Assembly: GCF_034044635.1 (NCBI RefSeq)
Contig: NZ_JAXCLX010000001.1
Span: 186,001-250,000 of the forward strand
Reading direction: 5' to 3'
Source of the DNA: Dongia rigui
GTDB lineage: Bacteria; Pseudomonadota; Alphaproteobacteria; Dongiales; Dongiaceae
Length of the DNA: 64,000 bases
Part shown: piece by piece, positions 23,276-29,937 of the stretch
Layout: the number at the start of each line of letters is the position of its first letter
Position numbering within the stretch: position 1 is the first letter of the stretch
The notes under the pieces: model-generated
What the model saw: only the letters and a program-made list of their open reading frames with translations
The model's database searches: none
Told to the model about the DNA's origin: nothing
Translations under genes and position numbers: made by a program

Positions 23276-24172
23276 ATGTCTGATGGGGCCGCTTCGCAAA
23301 GCACCAAGGGCACGCTGCTGGTGACAGCAGCAGCCATCTGCTGGAGTCTCGGTGGACTCATCGCGCGCCAGATTCAGACCGAGGCCTGGGTGACGGTCGG
23401 CTGGCGGGGCGCCATCGCCGCCGTGGCATTGCTGATCTTTCTCCTCATCCGCGATGGGCGCGGGACCTGGACGCATTTTCGCAATATGGGCGCGGGCGGA
23501 ATCGGTGTGGCGATCTGCTTTGCCGCCGCGTCGATCTCCTTCGTCATCGCGCTGCAACACGCGACCGTGGCGCTGATCCTGGTGGTGCAGTCGACGGCAC
23601 CGCTGATTGCCGGGCTCCTCGCCTGGATTTGGATGCGCGAACGTTTGGGACTTGCGCGTATCGTCGCCATGGCCGTGGCCTTTGGCGGCATTCTGCTGAT
23701 GGTGGCCAAGGCCGAAGGCCATGCCGATTTGCTCGGCATGTCGCTCTCCGGCGTCATTGCGGTGAGCTTTGCGGTGGCCACCGTGCTCACGCGCCGCTTT
23801 GCCCATGTGCGCATGACGCCGGCCACGTGCCTTGGCACCGCGATCATGGGCGTCATCGGCTTCAGCTTGGCAGGCGAGCTGGCGTTCGAGGTGACGGGCA
23901 GCGACCTCTTCTATCTGTTCCTGTTCGGCGCGGTACAACTTGCAATCGGCCTCATCCTTTTCACTACCGGTGCGCGCTTGATCCCCGCTGCCAAGGCGGC
24001 CCTCATCTCGCTCGTGGAAACAGTGCTGGGCGCCTTCTGGGTGTTCGTTTTCCTGGGCGAGAATCCCGGCATCTATGCCCTCTATGGCGGGATACTGGTG
24101 GTGGGTGCCGTGGCCGGCAACACGCTTTATGACCAGCGCCGCGCGCAGCGGCAGCCACTCAACGCCGCATGA
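23276..24172 (+). CDS. EamA/DMT-family transporter
   Basis: A 298-residue membrane protein with ten helices in two EamA repeats (each about 125 residues; first from GTLLVTAAAICWSLGGLIA, second from SLSGVIAVSFAVATVLTRR). The final helix carries the usual SLVETVLGAFWVFVFLGE motif. Exporter of small metabolites; substrate unknown. ATG 23276 has a GGGGGG site about 12 nt before. Its stop overlaps the next gene's ATG (ATGA). Confidence 0.9.
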   Translation: MSDGAASQSTKGTLLVTAAAICWSLGGLIARQIQTEAWVTVGWRGAIAAVALLIFLLIRDGRGTWTHFRNMGAGGIGVAICFAAASISFVIALQHATVALILVVQSTAPLIAGLLAWIWMRERLGLARIVAMAVAFGGILLMVAKAEGHADLLGMSLSGVIAVSFAVATVLTRRFAHVRMTPATCLGTAIMGVIGFSLAGELAFEVTGSDLFYLFLFGAVQLAIGLILFTTGARLIPAAKAALISLVETVLGAFWVFVFLGENPGIYALYGGILVVGAVAGNTLYDQRRAQRQPLNAA

Positions 24173-25395
24173 ACGGCGCCCTCATTGCCCGCGCACTGGG
24201 GCCCTTCGCCGCCGGCTATTTCACCTCCTATCTCTTTCGCGTCGTGAATGCGGCGATCTCGGATGATCTGGTGAAAGAGCTCTCGCTCAGCAACACCGAT
24301 CTCGGCCTCATGACGTCGATGTATCTCTACGGCTTCGTGCTGTTCCAATTGCCGTTGGGGTTGCTGCTCGACCGCTTCGGTCCGCGGCTGGTGCAGACCG
24401 GGCTGCTGCTGCTGGCGGCCTTGGGCGCGGCATTATTTGCACTGGGCAACAACACCGTCGAACTTGCCGGTGCGCGGCTCCTCATCGGTGTCGGGCTCGG
24501 CGGCTGCCTGATGTCGGCCTTCAAGGCCAATGCCATGTGGCTGCCGCCGGAACGGCTGGCATTGGGGAATTCGGCGGTCGTGACCTTCGGTGGGCTCGGC
24601 TTCCTGGCTGGCACCTATCCTGCCAATCTGGCGGCCGACCTCATCGGCTGGCGCGCCCTGTTCTTTATCCTTGTTGGCTTCACACTGGCGGTCACAGCGA
24701 CGATATATTTCCTGGTGCCAAAGCGCGATGACGACCATCATCCCCTCGCGTTCCGTGCCCAATTAAAAGGCTACGCCGATATCTTCCGCGACGGCATTTT
24801 CTGGCGCGTGACACCGATGGTGGCGGCCATCTCGGGCACCTTCATCGCCGTCCAGACATTATGGGCGACGCGCTGGATGGTCGATGTGGCTGGCCTGGAG
24901 CGGCACGCTGCCGGCCAGCAATTGATGATCCTGGGATTGGCCTTTGCCGTGGGGTCGCTGTCGACAGGCTTCATCGCCGATGCCGCCCAGCGGCGTGGCA
25001 TCGCACTCAAATTCATCGTCGGCGCCGCTTTCGCCCTTTATGCAGCAGCGCAGCTGGCGATGATCTTTGCGCTGCCCATCGCCCTGCCCGTGATCTGGCT
25101 GGTCTATGGCTTCACCGGTCAGGCGGCCAATCTGGGCTATGCGACGCTCGGCGCGCATTTCGGGCGCCAGCTCGCGGGACGCGCACAATCGGCTGCCAAC
25201 CTGATGCTGTTTCTGGCATCGGCGCTGTTCCAGTCATCGATCGGCTGGGCACTCGACCATCTGTCGCTCAGCATGCCCAAGGCCGACGCCTACGCCATAG
25301 CCCTTGGCACCTTGCTGTGCCTGCAGGTACTGGCTTTCACCTGGTATGCCGCCGGCCGCTATGCGCTGGTTCAGCGGGCGACCGCCGGCCGCTGA
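24169..25395 (+). CDS. Major facilitator superfamily transporter
   Basis: A 408-residue MFS protein with 12 helices. The loop 2-3 motif is present (LLDRFGPRLVQTG), and loop 3 (RLLIGVGLGGCLMSAFKANAMW) fits the sugar/organic-anion type. Its ATG overlaps the EamA stop by 4 bp, so both transporters are one operon. Its C-terminal end overlaps the convergent doxX-like gene by 25 bp. Confidence 0.9.
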   Translation: MNGALIARALGPFAAGYFTSYLFRVVNAAISDDLVKELSLSNTDLGLMTSMYLYGFVLFQLPLGLLLDRFGPRLVQTGLLLLAALGAALFALGNNTVELAGARLLIGVGLGGCLMSAFKANAMWLPPERLALGNSAVVTFGGLGFLAGTYPANLAADLIGWRALFFILVGFTLAVTATIYFLVPKRDDDHHPLAFRAQLKGYADIFRDGIFWRVTPMVAAISGTFIAVQTLWATRWMVDVAGLERHAAGQQLMILGLAFAVGSLSTGFIADAAQRRGIALKFIVGAAFALYAAAQLAMIFALPIALPVIWLVYGFTGQAANLGYATLGAHFGRQLAGRAQSAANLMLFLASALFQSSIGWALDHLSLSMPKADAYAIALGTLLCLQVLAFTWYAAGRYALVQRATAGR

Positions 25396-25814
25396 CCTGT
25401 GCGCGTCGCGATCAGGTGGTCGAGCGAGACATGCCCGGCACCGTTCTTGATGAGGAACAGCAGCGACACCGCCCAGACGGCATGAGTGTCGAAAGCACCG
25501 GGGTAAACGAAGATCTCGATCACCGCCGTCATGCAGAGCAAGGCCAAGGCAGCAAAGCGCGTGCCGAGACCCGCGAAGAGGAACATCGGCATGGCAAGTT
25601 CCATCGCCATGGCCATGGGCGCCGCGAGCTGCGGCGGGATGAGCGGCAGCTGGTATTCATATTGGAACAGCGCCAGCGTATTGCCGTTGTCCCAGCCATC
25701 GAGCTTCAGCAGGCCGGAACGCAGAAAGACGACGGCGATGCCAAGCCGCGCCAGCAGCGCGATCAAATCCATCGGGACGCGCGAAAAGAAGTCGATCAGT
25801 CGGTTGAAAGGCAT
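25371..25814 (-). CDS. DoxX-family membrane protein of the bufferin operon
   Basis: A 147-residue DoxX protein with four helices (LIALLARLGIAVVFLRSGLLKL; APMAMAMELAMPMFLFAGLG). DoxX proteins are often the last gene of bufferin operons, where they may help electron transfer or membrane redox chemistry (inference from context). Start ATG 25814 lies inside the end of bufC (19-bp overlap), so translation is coupled. Its end overlaps the convergent MFS gene. Confidence 0.85.
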   Translation of the reverse strand: MPFNRLIDFFSRVPMDLIALLARLGIAVVFLRSGLLKLDGWDNGNTLALFQYEYQLPLIPPQLAAPMAMAMELAMPMFLFAGLGTRFAALALLCMTAVIEIFVYPGAFDTHAVWAVSLLFLIKNGAGHVSLDHLIATRTGQRPAVAR

Positions 25815-26581
25815 GGTGCATCCTGTGTCGTATCAAGGGAAAACGCATAGCCGGTAAACGCCCGCGCCTGCAGCAGTGCGGCGAGCGTGGGCGCCATGTC
25901 GCTCATTTCGCCGGCAGCAGCGCCCAGGGATGCGCCGGTGAAAAGTGCCGCCGCGAATGCAGCGGCGGCCGGCGCCAAAGCCAGCAGCACGACCTCGTCA
26001 TCGTGCCGTGACACAAGAACGGATTGGCCCGGGGCATCAGCCGCAATAGCGGCCGTTTCGATGTCGAACGTATTGGTCTGCCAGATCGTGTGGATGGGAT
26101 AGGCCGAGTGCAGCAAACGCGCCGCCGGATGGATCTCGAAGACGAGATCGCCCACGCGTTCCGGCGCAACATCCACGAGGGCTTGTGGCATCAAGACCGG
26201 TGCGTCCGCTGCGTGCAAGGCTAGGTGCCGCGCCCATTCCAGGCGCACGACGTCGGGCAGATAGGCAAGCTGCGACAGATCGGACAAGGTCCCCACGAAA
26301 TCGGCAAAGCCCGCGCCATAATCATGGATGACGGGTGTGGTTGGCGGCTGTGCAGCAATGAAGCGCAGGGCACACCCCTCGAAACAGTCAGTACCGAGCA
26401 GGCGGCATGTCACGGGAAAACGCGATGTCAGGGTTGCGATCAAACCGGCAAATACATTGTTCCGATAAATGGCAAAGCGTCCGGGCTGCCGCAGGCCGGT
26501 CGGAATCGCGATCGACCGGTCCAGAATGGCTGCGGCGAAAGCGGCCTGTCGGTCACGCGGCAACATGGGCGTTTCCGGCAT
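25796..26581 (-). CDS. bufC: BufC-type putative DNA-binding domain protein (DUF2063)
   Basis: A 261-residue HvfC/BufC family protein. The N-terminal DUF2063 helices show RQAAFAAAILDR, RFAIYRNNVFAGLIATLTSRFPVTCRLLG (about 35-63), then DYGAGFADFVGT and a second half that holds the HPAARLLHSAYPIHTIW motif. In characterised systems this protein partners the MNIO enzyme in recognising the precursor. The annotated name putative DNA-binding is historical. It overlaps the end of bufB by 29 bp; ATG 26566 is an alternative start with a GGAAA site. Confidence 0.9.
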   Translation of the reverse strand: MPETPMLPRDRQAAFAAAILDRSIAIPTGLRQPGRFAIYRNNVFAGLIATLTSRFPVTCRLLGTDCFEGCALRFIAAQPPTTPVIHDYGAGFADFVGTLSDLSQLAYLPDVVRLEWARHLALHAADAPVLMPQALVDVAPERVGDLVFEIHPAARLLHSAYPIHTIWQTNTFDIETAAIAADAPGQSVLVSRHDDEVVLLALAPAAAAFAAALFTGASLGAAAGEMSDMAPTLAALLQARAFTGYAFSLDTTQDAPCLSTD

Positions 26582-27437
26582 GGGTGTTCAGAATCGCTTG
26601 CGCCCGCGCGGCTTCGCCGCGCAGCACATCCCAGGACGGCAGATCCTGGTCCCATTCGATCAAGGTCGGCAGCGGGCCGGTCTGTGCCACGACATGGCGA
26701 TAGAGATCCCAAACCGGGCCGGCCACCAGGGAGCCATGGGTATCGATCAGGACCTCGGTGCCGTCTGCATCCGTTTCGGCGCGATACCCGGCCAGATGGA
26801 TCTCGCCCACACACTGCAACGGATAGGCTGCGAGATACCCGCGCGGGTCGTAATCAAGATTATTGGCCGAAACGAAGACATTGTTGATATCGAGCAACAG
26901 GCCGCAGCCGGTGCGACGCACCAGTTCAGAGAGCAGATCTGTCTCAGCCATATCGTTGCCATCGAAGCTGAGATAGAGCGATGGATTCTCGATCAACAGC
27001 CGGCGTCCGAGACATCCCTGCACTTCATCGACATGGGCCACAACCCGGTCGAGCGTCTCGTGGGTGTAGGGGAGCGGCAGCAGGTCGTTCAAGAACTGAC
27101 CGCCATGCTCGGACCAGGCGAGATGCTCGGAAAAGCAAGCCGGTTCATAGCGCCGCATGAGATCGGCGAGGCGCCCAAGATGGGCCGGGTCCGGGCGCGC
27201 GGTTCCGCCCAGCGACAGGCCGACACCGTGAAAGGACAGCGCACAATGATCCCGGACCTTGCCGAGAACGCGATGCTGCGGTCCGCCGGCACACATAAAG
27301 TTCTCGGGATGCACCTCGACCCAGGCGACGCGGTGGGGATCGGTCAGCAGATCGGCATAATGCGCCGAACGCAGGCCGATCCCGGCTTTCGCCGGGACCG
27401 GGCCACGCGCCGCCGCGATGTCGGGCTGCAGCGTCAT
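26553..27437 (-). CDS. bufB: BufB, MNIO (DUF692) iron-dependent modifying enzyme
   Basis: A 294-residue TIM-barrel enzyme of the multinuclear non-heme iron-dependent oxidative (MNIO) family. Metal ligands and motifs visible: HPENFM (about 42), SFHGVGLSLGG (about 68), FSEHLAW (about 102), LIENPSLYL (about 147), LLDINNVFVSANN (about 180), HLAGYRAE (about 215), DTHGS (about 232) and EWDQD (about 264). Members modify Cys residues of the precursor peptide, here the bufA product. Starts 4 bp after the bufA stop; no strong SD, so coupled. Confidence 0.95.
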   Translation of the reverse strand: MTLQPDIAAARGPVPAKAGIGLRSAHYADLLTDPHRVAWVEVHPENFMCAGGPQHRVLGKVRDHCALSFHGVGLSLGGTARPDPAHLGRLADLMRRYEPACFSEHLAWSEHGGQFLNDLLPLPYTHETLDRVVAHVDEVQGCLGRRLLIENPSLYLSFDGNDMAETDLLSELVRRTGCGLLLDINNVFVSANNLDYDPRGYLAAYPLQCVGEIHLAGYRAETDADGTEVLIDTHGSLVAGPVWDLYRHVVAQTGPLPTLIEWDQDLPSWDVLRGEAARAQAILNTHAGNAHVAA

Positions 27438-27441
27438 AGGC

Positions 27442-27732
27442 TCAGGATTCGATAGGCTTCAGGGAACCAGCGCGCTCGGTGCCATCCGGCAGCTTGATCA
27501 TGGTGGTTTCGCATGAGCCCTTGGGCACCAGTTTCCAGGCGGCCTTGTCGTAATCGGCCTTTGACTGGCCGGCGCAGGAATTCCCGCCGGCCGAGGCGCA
27601 ATCATTTTGGCCGGCGAGCGCCACACCAAAGCACTTTTCCTTTGCCTCGTCGGCCCGGGAAGGGGCGCTGGCGATCGCAAGAGCAGTCAACAACGAGCCG
27701 GCCAAAGCCAGCGACGCGGTACGGCGGTTCAT
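27442..27732 (-). CDS. bufA: BufA bufferin precursor (DUF2282)
   Basis: A 96-residue precursor of a Cys-modified peptide (RiPP). It has a Sec-type signal peptide ([19 protein letters not shown], likely cut near SRA-DE, residue 27) and a core with four Cys at 34, 45, 53 and 74, in the DUF2282 pattern [28 protein letters not shown] 27732 is chosen over ATG 27738 because AGGAGG lies 8 nt before it but only 1 nt before the other. Bufferins bind copper in the envelope after MNIO modification; the copper role here is inferred. Directly behind an ECF-type promoter motif. Confidence 0.93.
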
Positions 27733-27781
27733 AAGCATTTCCTCCTGAAAATGAGCAGCCGTTTGCTGCCCTACGCGGCAT

Positions 27782-27809
27782 GTTTCGGGTCCGAACGGTT
27801 CGGTGTTAC
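27782..27809 (-). promoter_or_regulatory. ECF (SigF-type) promoter of the bufferin operon
   Basis: On the minus strand: GTAACA (27809-27804), 16 bp, CGAAAC (27787-27782). This closely fits the GTAACC-N16-CGAA form I recall for Caulobacter SigF. It is about 50 bp before the bufA ATG. The same motif precedes the sigma gene on the other strand. Confidence 0.7.
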
Positions 27810-27878
27810 AGCGATGGGGCCAAAATCATGCAGTTTACCGACGCAGCACGATGAATCATGATGCGCCACCCGGCCGGT

Positions 27879-27906
27879 GTAACAATTGTTGCCAGGGCCG
27901 CGTAAC
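27879..27906 (+). promoter_or_regulatory. ECF (SigF-type) promoter of the sigma factor gene
   Basis: GTAACA (27879-27884), 16-bp spacer, CGTAAC (27901-27906), about 15 bp before the GTG start of the sigma factor. Together with the motif in front of bufA it suggests autoregulation. Confidence 0.65.
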
Positions 27907-27921
27907 ACGGGGTGTGCAGGT

Positions 27922-28473
27922 GTGACGGATTTGGAAGACGAACTGGCCAGTCTGATGCGGGCGGCCCAGGCGGGGGACGCCGGGGCCTATCGCCGGTTGC
28001 TGGCGGCCCTTGCCGACATGCTGCGCCGCTGGGTCAGGCGGGAGTTGTCGCGCCAGGGCTACGAGATCGCAGAAGCCGAGGACATCGTGCAAGAGACATT
28101 GCTGGCCATTCATTTGAAGCGCGGGAGCTGGGACCCTGACCGGGCCATCCTGCCGTGGCTGCGCGCGGTCACCCGGCACAAGTTGATCGACAATCTGCGC
28201 CGGCGCGGCCGCCGCATCATGGTGCCGGTCGACGACATCATGGAGACGTTGGCGGCACCCGAACCCGAAGAGACGCTGTCGACCGAGGCCCTCGACCGGC
28301 ACCTGGCGACTTTGCCGCCCGGCCAGTCGCAAGTGGTCCGCGCCATTTCCATCGACGGGTTGAGTCCCAGCGAGACTGCCAAGAAACTGACCCTGAGCGA
28401 GGGCGCCGTGCGGGTGGCGCTGCACCGGGGACTTGCCGCCCTTTCGCGCGCGGCACAAAGGAGCGAACAGTGA
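27922..28473 (+). CDS. ECF sigma factor (SigF-type) next to the bufferin operon
   Basis: A 183-residue RNA polymerase sigma factor of the ECF class. Region 2 is seen as ELASLMRAAQAGDAGAYRRLLAAL, AEAEDIVQETLLAIHLKR and WLRAVTRHKLIDNLRRRGRR (about 5-108); region 4 as LPPGQSQVVRAISIDGLSPSETAKKL and GAVRVALHRGLAAL (about 135-175). I chose GTG 27922 because the only longer start, a TTG at 27886, would fall inside the promoter motif. It overlaps the NrsF gene (GTGA) and is divergent from bufA. Confidence 0.93.
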   Translation: MTDLEDELASLMRAAQAGDAGAYRRLLAALADMLRRWVRRELSRQGYEIAEAEDIVQETLLAIHLKRGSWDPDRAILPWLRAVTRHKLIDNLRRRGRRIMVPVDDIMETLAAPEPEETLSTEALDRHLATLPPGQSQVVRAISIDGLSPSETAKKLTLSEGAVRVALHRGLAALSRAAQRSEQ

Positions 28474-29108
28474 AGACCGACGATCTCATCAGCGGCCTCG
28501 TGGCCGACCAGGGACGCCCACCAGCACGGGCCCAACAGATTCTTGCTGTCGCACTACCGTTGGCGCTCATCGTTTCGCTGCTGGTGTTCGTCGTGGAACT
28601 GCGGATTCGGGCGGATTTTCTGACCGCATTGGGGACGTGGCGGTATCTGTTCAAATTCGCGACCGCCGGCAGCATCGCCTTGTTCGGCCTGGTCTTGCTG
28701 CTTGAAATGGCGCGGCCCGAACAGTCGGTTCGCCGCGTTTTCCTTTGGCTGCCGCTTGCCTTGGCGCCGCTGCTGCTGTCGGTCGCCATGGAAATGGTGA
28801 TGCTGCCGACCGATCAATGGGGCGCCAGCGCGATTGGATTCTACCCGCTTTACTGCCTGTGCCTGGTGCCGGCCATCTCACTGGCGCCGCTGGCGGCCGG
28901 GCTCTACGCCATGCGTCGTGGCGCCCCGCAATCGCCGACGATGGCCGGGGCCGCTGCCGGTTTCGCCGCCGGCGGCATCGGTGCCTTCATCTACTCGGTC
29001 CACTGCGACAATGATTCGCCGTTCTATGTGGCCATCTGGTACCTGGGCGCGATCGTCATCGTCACGATCCTCGGGGCTCTGATCGGGCGCAGGGTGCTGC
29101 GGTGGTAG
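28470..29108 (+). CDS. nrsF: NrsF-type membrane anti-sigma factor (DUF1109)
   Basis: A 212-residue membrane protein with about six helices, of the DUF1109/NrsF family of anti-sigma factors. The C-terminal half carries FYPLYCLCLVPAISLAPL, GAPQSPTMAGAAAGFAAGG and YSVHCDNDSPFYVAIWY. Cys131 and Cys179 fall where the two conserved Cys residues of Caulobacter NrsF lie; metals probably act through them to release the sigma factor. GTG 28470 overlaps the sigma gene's stop and follows AAGGAG, so the pair is translationally coupled. Confidence 0.92.
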   Translation: MKTDDLISGLVADQGRPPARAQQILAVALPLALIVSLLVFVVELRIRADFLTALGTWRYLFKFATAGSIALFGLVLLLEMARPEQSVRRVFLWLPLALAPLLLSVAMEMVMLPTDQWGASAIGFYPLYCLCLVPAISLAPLAAGLYAMRRGAPQSPTMAGAAAGFAAGGIGAFIYSVHCDNDSPFYVAIWYLGAIVIVTILGALIGRRVLRW

Positions 29109-29214: not shown

Positions 29215-29937
29215 ATGGGAACGACTCAGACACAAACCACCGAACGCACCTTGCGCGCCTTTGCGCTGCTCGAGGGCATCCCCGACATCGACCTGAAAGC
29301 GCTCGAAGGGCGCTGCCGGTGGCGCAATTGCGACAAGGGCCAGACCATTCTGGACAAGGGCGCCACATCGAAGGATGTGTTTTTCGTCCTTAAAGGTTCC
29401 GTGGCCGTTGTCACCTTCTCGCCCTCCGGCAAGGAAGTAACGCTCGCGACCGTGAAGCCCGGCGAATCCTTCGGCGAGTTGGCGGCGATCGACGATCAGC
29501 CGCGTTCGGCCAGCGTGACCGCGATCGAGAAGTCGGAATTGTGCATCATGCCGCCCGACGTCTTCATGGATCTGGTGCGCACCAATGCCGCCGTCTCCTT
29601 CCGCCTGCTGCAGCGCATGGCGCGTCTGGTGCGCCAGAGCGGCCTGCGCATTATGGAACTGTCGACGTTGCAGGCGGCACAGCGCGTCTATGCCGAGTTG
29701 CTGCGCATGGCGCAGCCGGAACCAGCCGTGCCCGGCCTCTGGGTCGTGCGCCCGTTGCCGCCGATGCATGAGATCGCCGGCATCACCAGCACGACGCGTG
29801 AGACGGTCAACCGAGCTGTCAGCCAGCTCTATCCGAGCGGGCTTCTGAAGCGCAAGGGGCGCAACCTTTATCTGATGGATAAAGTGAAGCTCGAAGAACT
29901 GGTGCAGACCATCCAGGCGCATCACGCGCACAAATAG
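29215..29937 (+). CDS. Crp/Fnr-family transcriptional regulator
   Basis: A 240-residue regulator: an N-terminal cyclic-nucleotide-binding-like domain (about 15-125; DVFFVLKGSVAVV, GESFGELAAIDDQPRSASV), the long dimer helix (RLLQRMARLVRQSGLRIMEL) and a C-terminal winged HTH (EIAGITSTTRETVNRAVSQL, about 187-206). There are no N-terminal FNR-type iron-sulfur Cys residues. Effector unknown; the PRSASV segment resembles the CRP cAMP pocket. ATG 29203 is another possible start. It ends 12 bp from the convergent phosphatidyltransferase gene. Confidence 0.88.
   Translation: MGTTQTQTTERTLRAFALLEGIPDIDLKALEGRCRWRNCDKGQTILDKGATSKDVFFVLKGSVAVVTFSPSGKEVTLATVKPGESFGELAAIDDQPRSASVTAIEKSELCIMPPDVFMDLVRTNAAVSFRLLQRMARLVRQSGLRIMELSTLQAAQRVYAELLRMAQPEPAVPGLWVVRPLPPMHEIAGITSTTRETVNRAVSQLYPSGLLKRKGRNLYLMDKVKLEELVQTIQAHHAHK

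Follow-up and report, generated by a model that had tools for sequence, protein, structure and literature searches.

A SigF/NrsF-bufferin locus in Dongia rigui and its candidate wider regulon

RESULTS

Organization of the bufABC-doxX and sigF-nrsF genes

The window analyzed here is a 64-kb (64,000-nucleotide) stretch of the Dongia rigui genome (assembly GCF_034044635.1, contig NZ_JAXCLX010000001.1, positions 186,001 to 250,000), and all coordinates without a contig label refer to it. Its minus strand carries a bufferin operon, bufA-bufB-bufC-doxX, and its plus strand a divergently oriented pair, sigF-nrsF, that codes for an extracytoplasmic function (ECF) sigma factor and a membrane anti-sigma factor. 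The locus is a clear and complete example of the known SigF/NrsF-bufferin architecture. A preliminary description of this DNA had already named a bufferin-type operon divergent from an ECF sigma factor and its anti-sigma factor; its coordinates were confirmed, as were the families by Pfam and NCBIfam searches, and all six proteins scored above a Pfam cut-off. The bufA gene (27442..27732) encodes a 96-residue Buf1 (DUF2282) precursor (PF10048, 82.4 bits; cut-off, 22.4). Its ATG at 27732 lies 8 nt behind an AGGAGG sequence, whereas an alternative ATG at 27738 lies only 2 nt behind it; with the start at 27732, the four cysteines fall at positions 34, 45, 53, and 74, exactly as first described. 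The N terminus resembles a signal peptide, with one hydrophobic stretch (residues 5 to 23) and a cleavage-like site judged by eye only. Next, bufB (26553..27437) encodes an MNIO (DUF692) bufferin maturase (PF05114, 337.9 bits; NCBIfam BufB model NF050167, 367.8 bits with a cut-off of 310), whose closest solved structure by sequence is 3bww. The product of bufC (25796..26581) is the DUF2063 partner of the MNIO enzyme (PF09836, 88 bits; cut-off, 27.2); it reached 58.4 bits with the NCBIfam HvfC-family model, under the cut-off of 142, and its best match to a solved structure had an E value of only 0.032. The terminal gene, doxX (25371..25814), encodes a DoxX-family membrane protein (PF07681, 68.2 bits; cut-off, 23.6). 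These genes had been said to overlap, which holds for bufB/bufC (29 nt) and bufC/doxX (19 nt) but not for bufA and bufB, which are separated by a 4-nt gap.

On the other strand, sigF (27922..28473) begins with GTG and encodes a protein with both Pfam Sigma70 regions, r2 and r4 (NCBIfam RNA polymerase sigma factor model NF009165, 239.7 bits; cut-off, 198). It appears to be of the SigF/ECF16 type, a group number suggested by its context. An alternative TTG start at 27886 would fall within the promoter described below. The nrsF gene (28470..29108), also with a GTG start, overlaps sigF by 4 nt and encodes a protein that contains Cys129, Cys131, and Cys179. Its match to PF06532 (173.4 bits) spans the whole family profile (1 to 204 of 204); a simple hydropathy scan gave five helices, compared with six in the preliminary description, and a search of its profile against solved structures returned a best E value of only 0.035.

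Outward-facing SigF-type promoters in the intergenic gap

The motif TGTAAC-N17-CGAA/CGTA occurs twice in the window, where 0.20 matches would be expected, and 2 of 100 shuffled sequences also reach two; the pair exceeds what chance would give. Both matches lie within the gap between bufA and sigF, one on each strand and each directed at the adjoining gene: a candidate promoter of bufABC-doxX (TGTAAC-N17-CGAA, 27784..27810, minus strand) and a candidate promoter of sigF-nrsF (TGTAAC-N17-CGTA, 27878..27904, plus strand). Caulobacter SigF is reported to recognize GTAACC-N16-CGAA (PMC3511200), and both sites have the Caulobacter spacing, with A instead of C at the sixth base and, at one of them, a −10 element reading CGTA. 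The motif before sigF is kept in six of seven genomes of the genus (spacing of 16 or 17, with 9 or 10 of 10 positions matching) and was not seen for G005. As the paired motifs point outward and have the published spacing, they support control of both transcription units by one sigma factor, and together with the Caulobacter precedent they bear out the earlier proposal that the sigma factor would switch on both itself and the peptide operon. In Caulobacter, both promoters were assayed by lacZ fusion and sigF autoregulation was described as not strong under Cr or Cd (PMC3511200), whereas in a study of Cu stress the regulon, including sigF, was reported as induced and the sigF mutant as Cu sensitive (PMC8224329).

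Co-distribution of the motif and nrsF in other genomes

We then compared 61 genomes of relatives, of which 35 had a DUF2282 match and 20 an NrsF match (19 above the cut-off). The bufA set comprised 30 loci, one from each of 30 of the 35 genomes with a DUF2282 match (49 matches overall), and a motif was counted when at least 9 of 10 positions agreed within a 430-bp stretch; G019, G041, and G044, which have DUF2282 and were without NrsF, fell outside this set. The motif preceded bufA at 13 of the 14 loci whose genomes have nrsF and at none of the 16 whose genomes do not (P = 1.2e-7). The single miss is a bufA of G009 that lies away from nrsF; a second bufA in the same genome adjoins nrsF and has the motif. 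The nrsF-associated bufA genes of G005 and G012 also carry it; these two and the second G009 gene were looked at separately and are not part of the 13 of 14. Hence, in all 16 sampled genomes that contain bufA as well as nrsF, the motif stands before at least one bufA.

A second comparison used named genomes and was limited to the best 80 loci from an alignment search with BufB, in which BufA and NrsF were found with profiles built here; three genomes of the Dongia rigui genus are shared with the first comparison. Among the named genomes, the closest relatives were an unclassified proteobacterial metagenome-assembled genome (MAG) and a Dongia mobilis MAG. A BufA-type gene lay upstream of bufB in all 80, and nrsF was present on the fetched stretch (flanks of up to 5 kb) in 30. 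A relaxed form of the motif preceded bufA at 29 of these 30 loci, compared with 10 of the 50 without a linked nrsF. The strict form, with GTAAC and the −10 element both exact (background, 24 of 4,000 letter-shuffled stretches), was found at 26/30 and 2/50, respectively (P = 1.2e-14), and the 26 strict sites lay 158 to 222 bp upstream of the start of the BufA match. Where linked, nrsF was divergent and upstream in 24 cases, downstream on the same strand in 3, and otherwise placed in 3. Loci L144 to L147 and L149 stand outside all counts. Sequence comparison thus supports the recurrence of the Caulobacter circuit as one block among alphaproteobacteria, with a few further records, and the promoter motif offers a means of telling bufferin operons that SigF probably controls from the rest.

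That the sigma/anti-sigma pair is a chance neighbor that regulates other genes, with the bufferin operon separately controlled, would fit the 50 of the 80 named loci that are without a linked nrsF and show that bufferin operons do not need it. However, the motif stands before bufA at this locus, and elsewhere motif and nrsF closely co-occur, which leaves a merely accidental arrangement very improbable.

Variation of the core peptide

The preliminary description had considered the Asn-Ser-Cys triplet at the third cysteine of BufA unusual in comparison with His-Ser-Cys. Among the 30 loci from relatives, however, the triplet is Asn-Ser-Cys in 10, Thr-Ser-Cys in 6, His-Ser-Cys in 6, Ser-Ser-Cys in 5, and Asn-Ala-Cys, Thr-Thr-Cys, or Thr-Val-Cys in one each. 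Among the best 80 named loci, it is Thr-Thr-Cys in 71, Thr-Ser-Cys in 4, Asn-Ser-Cys in 3 (those most closely related to the present genome), and Ala-Thr-Cys in 1, with 1 unread and none with His-Ser-Cys. A change of the modified site or the chemistry by Asn-Ser-Cys could find some support in the differences between lineages ahead of this cysteine, but the variation is wide and little residue conservation is reported around the cysteines of DUF2282 precursors (PMC13097082). Judged from these counts, the Asn-Ser-Cys core is normal variation, and such a change is very unlikely. In Buf1, the central cysteines are reported to be modified and the outer pair to enter a disulfide (PMC12452194); by that precedent, Cys45 and Cys53 are probably modified here and Cys34 and Cys74 probably form a disulfide.

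A second bufferin operon and an msrQ-like gene carry the motif

The genome contains one DUF2282 gene, one NrsF gene, and two MNIO genes. Four of its seven strict N17 matches lie before bufA, sigF, the bufA2 gene of a second bufferin operon, and an msrQ-like gene. Since the same motif also precedes this unlinked second operon and the msrQ-like gene, the module is not self-contained, contrary to what had first been thought. The second operon (G000:C1:2447413-2449503; L003/L009) encodes BufA2, a BufB, and an HvfC-like partner behind a SigF-type promoter. Its precursor has 87 residues and six cysteines and scored 86 bits against a BufA2 cut-off of 60; the BufB is above its cut-off, and the partner is a weak HvfC-family match below the cut-off. 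On the opposite strand, its neighbor is a gene whose PvdO-family score falls far short of the cut-off of that model. We examined 29 above-cut-off bufA2 loci, leaving out L076, which is cut at a contig start, tandem second copies, and all sub-cut-off matches. The motif was present before bufA2 at 9/14 loci from genomes with nrsF and at 1/15 from genomes without it (P = 0.0017). The ten positives are confined to two lineages, namely this genus (5/5 loci) and family f42 (5/5 loci), the latter including one locus from a MAG that gave no NrsF match; none of the 19 loci from other lineages was positive, five of these being from nrsF genomes.

The msrQ-like gene (G000:C4:274.8-275.5 kb; L011/L240) has a SigF-type promoter motif 83 bp before its domain match. 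The six lowest-scoring of the 28 MsrQ matches were set aside; among the other 22, the motif was found at 7/12 genes from nrsF genomes and 1/10 from the others (P = 0.03), mainly in this genus (5/6 tested). Within the genus, it precedes the msrQ-like gene in this genome and four others; the msrQ-like gene of G005 is without it, and in G004 no match was found. An MsrP-like gene, a weak match only, lies on another contig (C3).

Further matches were noted at other genes. Two genomes of the genus have a SigF-type motif upstream of a DsbD-like gene, 36 bp from its start codon (L274 in G006 and L288 in G002; Pfam was run on L274), which makes this gene a possible further SigF target; in the genome of the window itself, none of the strict matches examined adjoined a DsbD-like gene. 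Strict matches in one genome each, before genes for a molybdopterin oxidoreductase (L265, G001), a DUF1223 protein (L275, G005), and a pyridine-nucleotide disulfide oxidoreductase (L262, G006), may be due to chance. Another strict match (L005, G000:C1:97208-97234), roughly 250 bp upstream of rpoH and within the 3′-terminal part of an rluD-type gene, recurs in G001 and G003 and probably reflects coding constraint. In six genomes, matches of the TGAAAC type (9/10 positions) located 273 to 305 bp upstream of the NrsF match were ignored, as they probably lie inside the sigma factor gene. At the locus itself, a major facilitator superfamily transporter gene (24169-25395, plus strand) and doxX converge and share 25 bp at their 3′ ends (25371-25395), and a gene for a Crp/Fnr-type regulator (29215-29937) follows nrsF on the same strand.

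Cysteines of NrsF and the nature of the signal

Among 64 distinct NrsF homologues, Cys129 is present in 64 and Cys179 in 54; these are the conserved cysteines, in agreement with the family pattern recognized earlier. Cys131, two residues past Cys129 in a Cys-Leu-Cys sequence, occurs in the NrsF of the window alone (1/64). Both cysteines of Caulobacter NrsF are reported to matter for holding SigF-dependent genes at basal level, and Caulobacter SigF to respond to Cr and Cd, with metal-induced release of the sigma factor (PMC3511200), and to Cu (PMC8224329). Other members of the DUF1109/NrsF family are reported to answer to H2O2 in Bradyrhizobium (PMC3420878) or HOCl in Brucella (PMC8315932), and the label of metal sensor given to NrsF at first is therefore better softened to a sensor of thiol-reactive stress, with metals as the likely stimulus.

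These relatives also raise the possibility that the same module responds to periplasmic thiol or methionine oxidation by HOCl or H2O2 and not to metal, copper buffering being one arm of an oxidative-damage response. The motif at msrQ-like genes and before the DsbD-like gene in this genus fits such a signal, as do the msr targets reported in both Bradyrhizobium and Brucella and the impairment that PMC8224329 cites for a Caulobacter sigF mutant under oxidative stress in stationary phase. However, agents that generate reactive oxygen species are reported not to induce the Caulobacter SigF genes (Kohler et al., PMC3511200), Cu is reported to induce the whole regulon there and the sigF mutant to be Cu sensitive (PMC8224329), and the main products belong to copper-binding peptide families. 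An oxidation signal seems a tentative and rather unlikely alternative.

DISCUSSION

We consider the locus to be the SigF/NrsF-bufferin module known from Caulobacter, with the wider regulon outlined above, and put the probability of this interpretation at about 0.88. It is anchored in the gene families, the gene order, the promoter motifs, and the co-distribution of motif and nrsF. In such a circuit, NrsF in the inner membrane would hold SigF until periplasmic stress at Cys129 and Cys179 frees it; excess copper or other thiol-reactive metals would, by analogy, be the most likely trigger. Freed SigF would read TGTAAC-N16/17-CGAA(CGTA) before bufABC-doxX, sigF-nrsF, the unlinked bufA2-B2-C2 operon, and the msrQ-like gene. 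BufBC would convert cysteines of BufA, probably the central Cys45 and Cys53, to thiooxazoles, and modified BufA would be exported by Sec and buffer periplasmic copper, while MsrQ would help in the repair of oxidized periplasmic methionines. For the inducer, the thiooxazole chemistry, the export, the copper binding, and the mechanism of release, this proposal draws on other species.

Several points weigh against it. The regulon, the peptide chemistry, and the metal response of this organism are predictions from its sequence. The NrsF protein scored 101.6 bits with the NCBIfam AntiSigF_NrsF equivalog (NF042994), whose cut-off is 300, so that it belongs to the family by Pfam but is no strict equivalog by this model, and the msrQ-like gene narrowly misses the MsrQ cut-off (123.6 versus 130 bits). 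A bufA gene that is not beside nrsF can be without the motif despite an nrsF elsewhere in the genome, as in the G009 copy and a second copy in G001. The compared genomes are related, so the P values overstate their independence. The genome-wide motif total, finally, does not exceed that of a reversed-pattern control (7 versus 5, or 8 versus 41 when spacings of 16 and 17 are both allowed). We therefore rejected genome-wide counts as evidence: the position of the motif, not its number, is informative, and lone matches elsewhere mean nothing. A bolder version, in which one NrsF-gated sigma factor runs the linked Buf1 operon, the unlinked Buf2 operon, and msrQ as a copper-and-oxidation periplasmic regulon in two lineages (this genus and f42), and in which the Cys131 gained beside Cys129 could form a direct site for Cu(I), is quite unlikely to hold in full.

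Among known systems, RpoE2 of Haemophilus is likewise an ECF sigma factor reported to control a COG3220 (MNIO)-DUF2063-DoxX cluster and an Msr, but its anti-sigma factor is described as a 67-residue cytoplasmic protein and not an NrsF (PMC7907618); we take that cluster to be the oxazolin cluster, and oxazolin precursors are of the EGKCG type. The ECF16 sigma factors with DUF1109/NrsF partners in Bradyrhizobium (EcfF-OsrA) and Brucella share the NrsF cysteines, at the same numbers of 129 and 179, and Msr-type targets; the targets given in the available portions of those reports are Msr, scavenger, and other genes, with no bufferin operon named there (PMC3420878, PMC8315932). Bufferins of the Buf1 and Buf2 families, or captophorins, are described with a four-cysteine DUF2282 precursor, an MNIO, a DUF2063 partner, and DoxX, all in common with the operon here (PMC12452194, PMC13097082); the core here is Asn-Ser-Cys, and the likeness is one of gene content.

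The Caulobacter crescentus/vibrioides system, sigF-nrsF with the Buf1 operon CC3254-CC3257, shares gene content, adjoining sigma and anti-sigma genes, and promoter consensus and spacing with the Dongia rigui locus. Its regulon is likewise reported to include a second MNIO operon (CC2907-2905) and msrPQ-type genes (CC2748) (PMC3511200, PMC8224329). Two differences stand out: the motif here precedes an msrQ-like gene whose MsrP-like counterpart lies on a separate contig, and the second precursor scores above the cut-off of the BufA2 model, to which no match was found in the Caulobacter genome searched. Kohler et al. list CC2907 as DUF2282 (PMC3511200), and Antoine et al. assign a Buf2 to C. vibrioides and describe sigma factor and NrsF genes in Buf1 but not Buf2 clusters (PMC12452194). 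If CC2907 is that Buf2, then published work already implies that SigF controls Buf2 at a distance, although no explicit statement of it was found in the literature searched. The present genome suggests that the Buf1-not-Buf2 rule may describe neighborhood only, as Buf2 is apparently wired to the same sigma factor at a distance. Three points seem worth keeping: the motif and nrsF are distributed together, both bufferin families appear to be controlled jointly, and NrsF has an additional cysteine.

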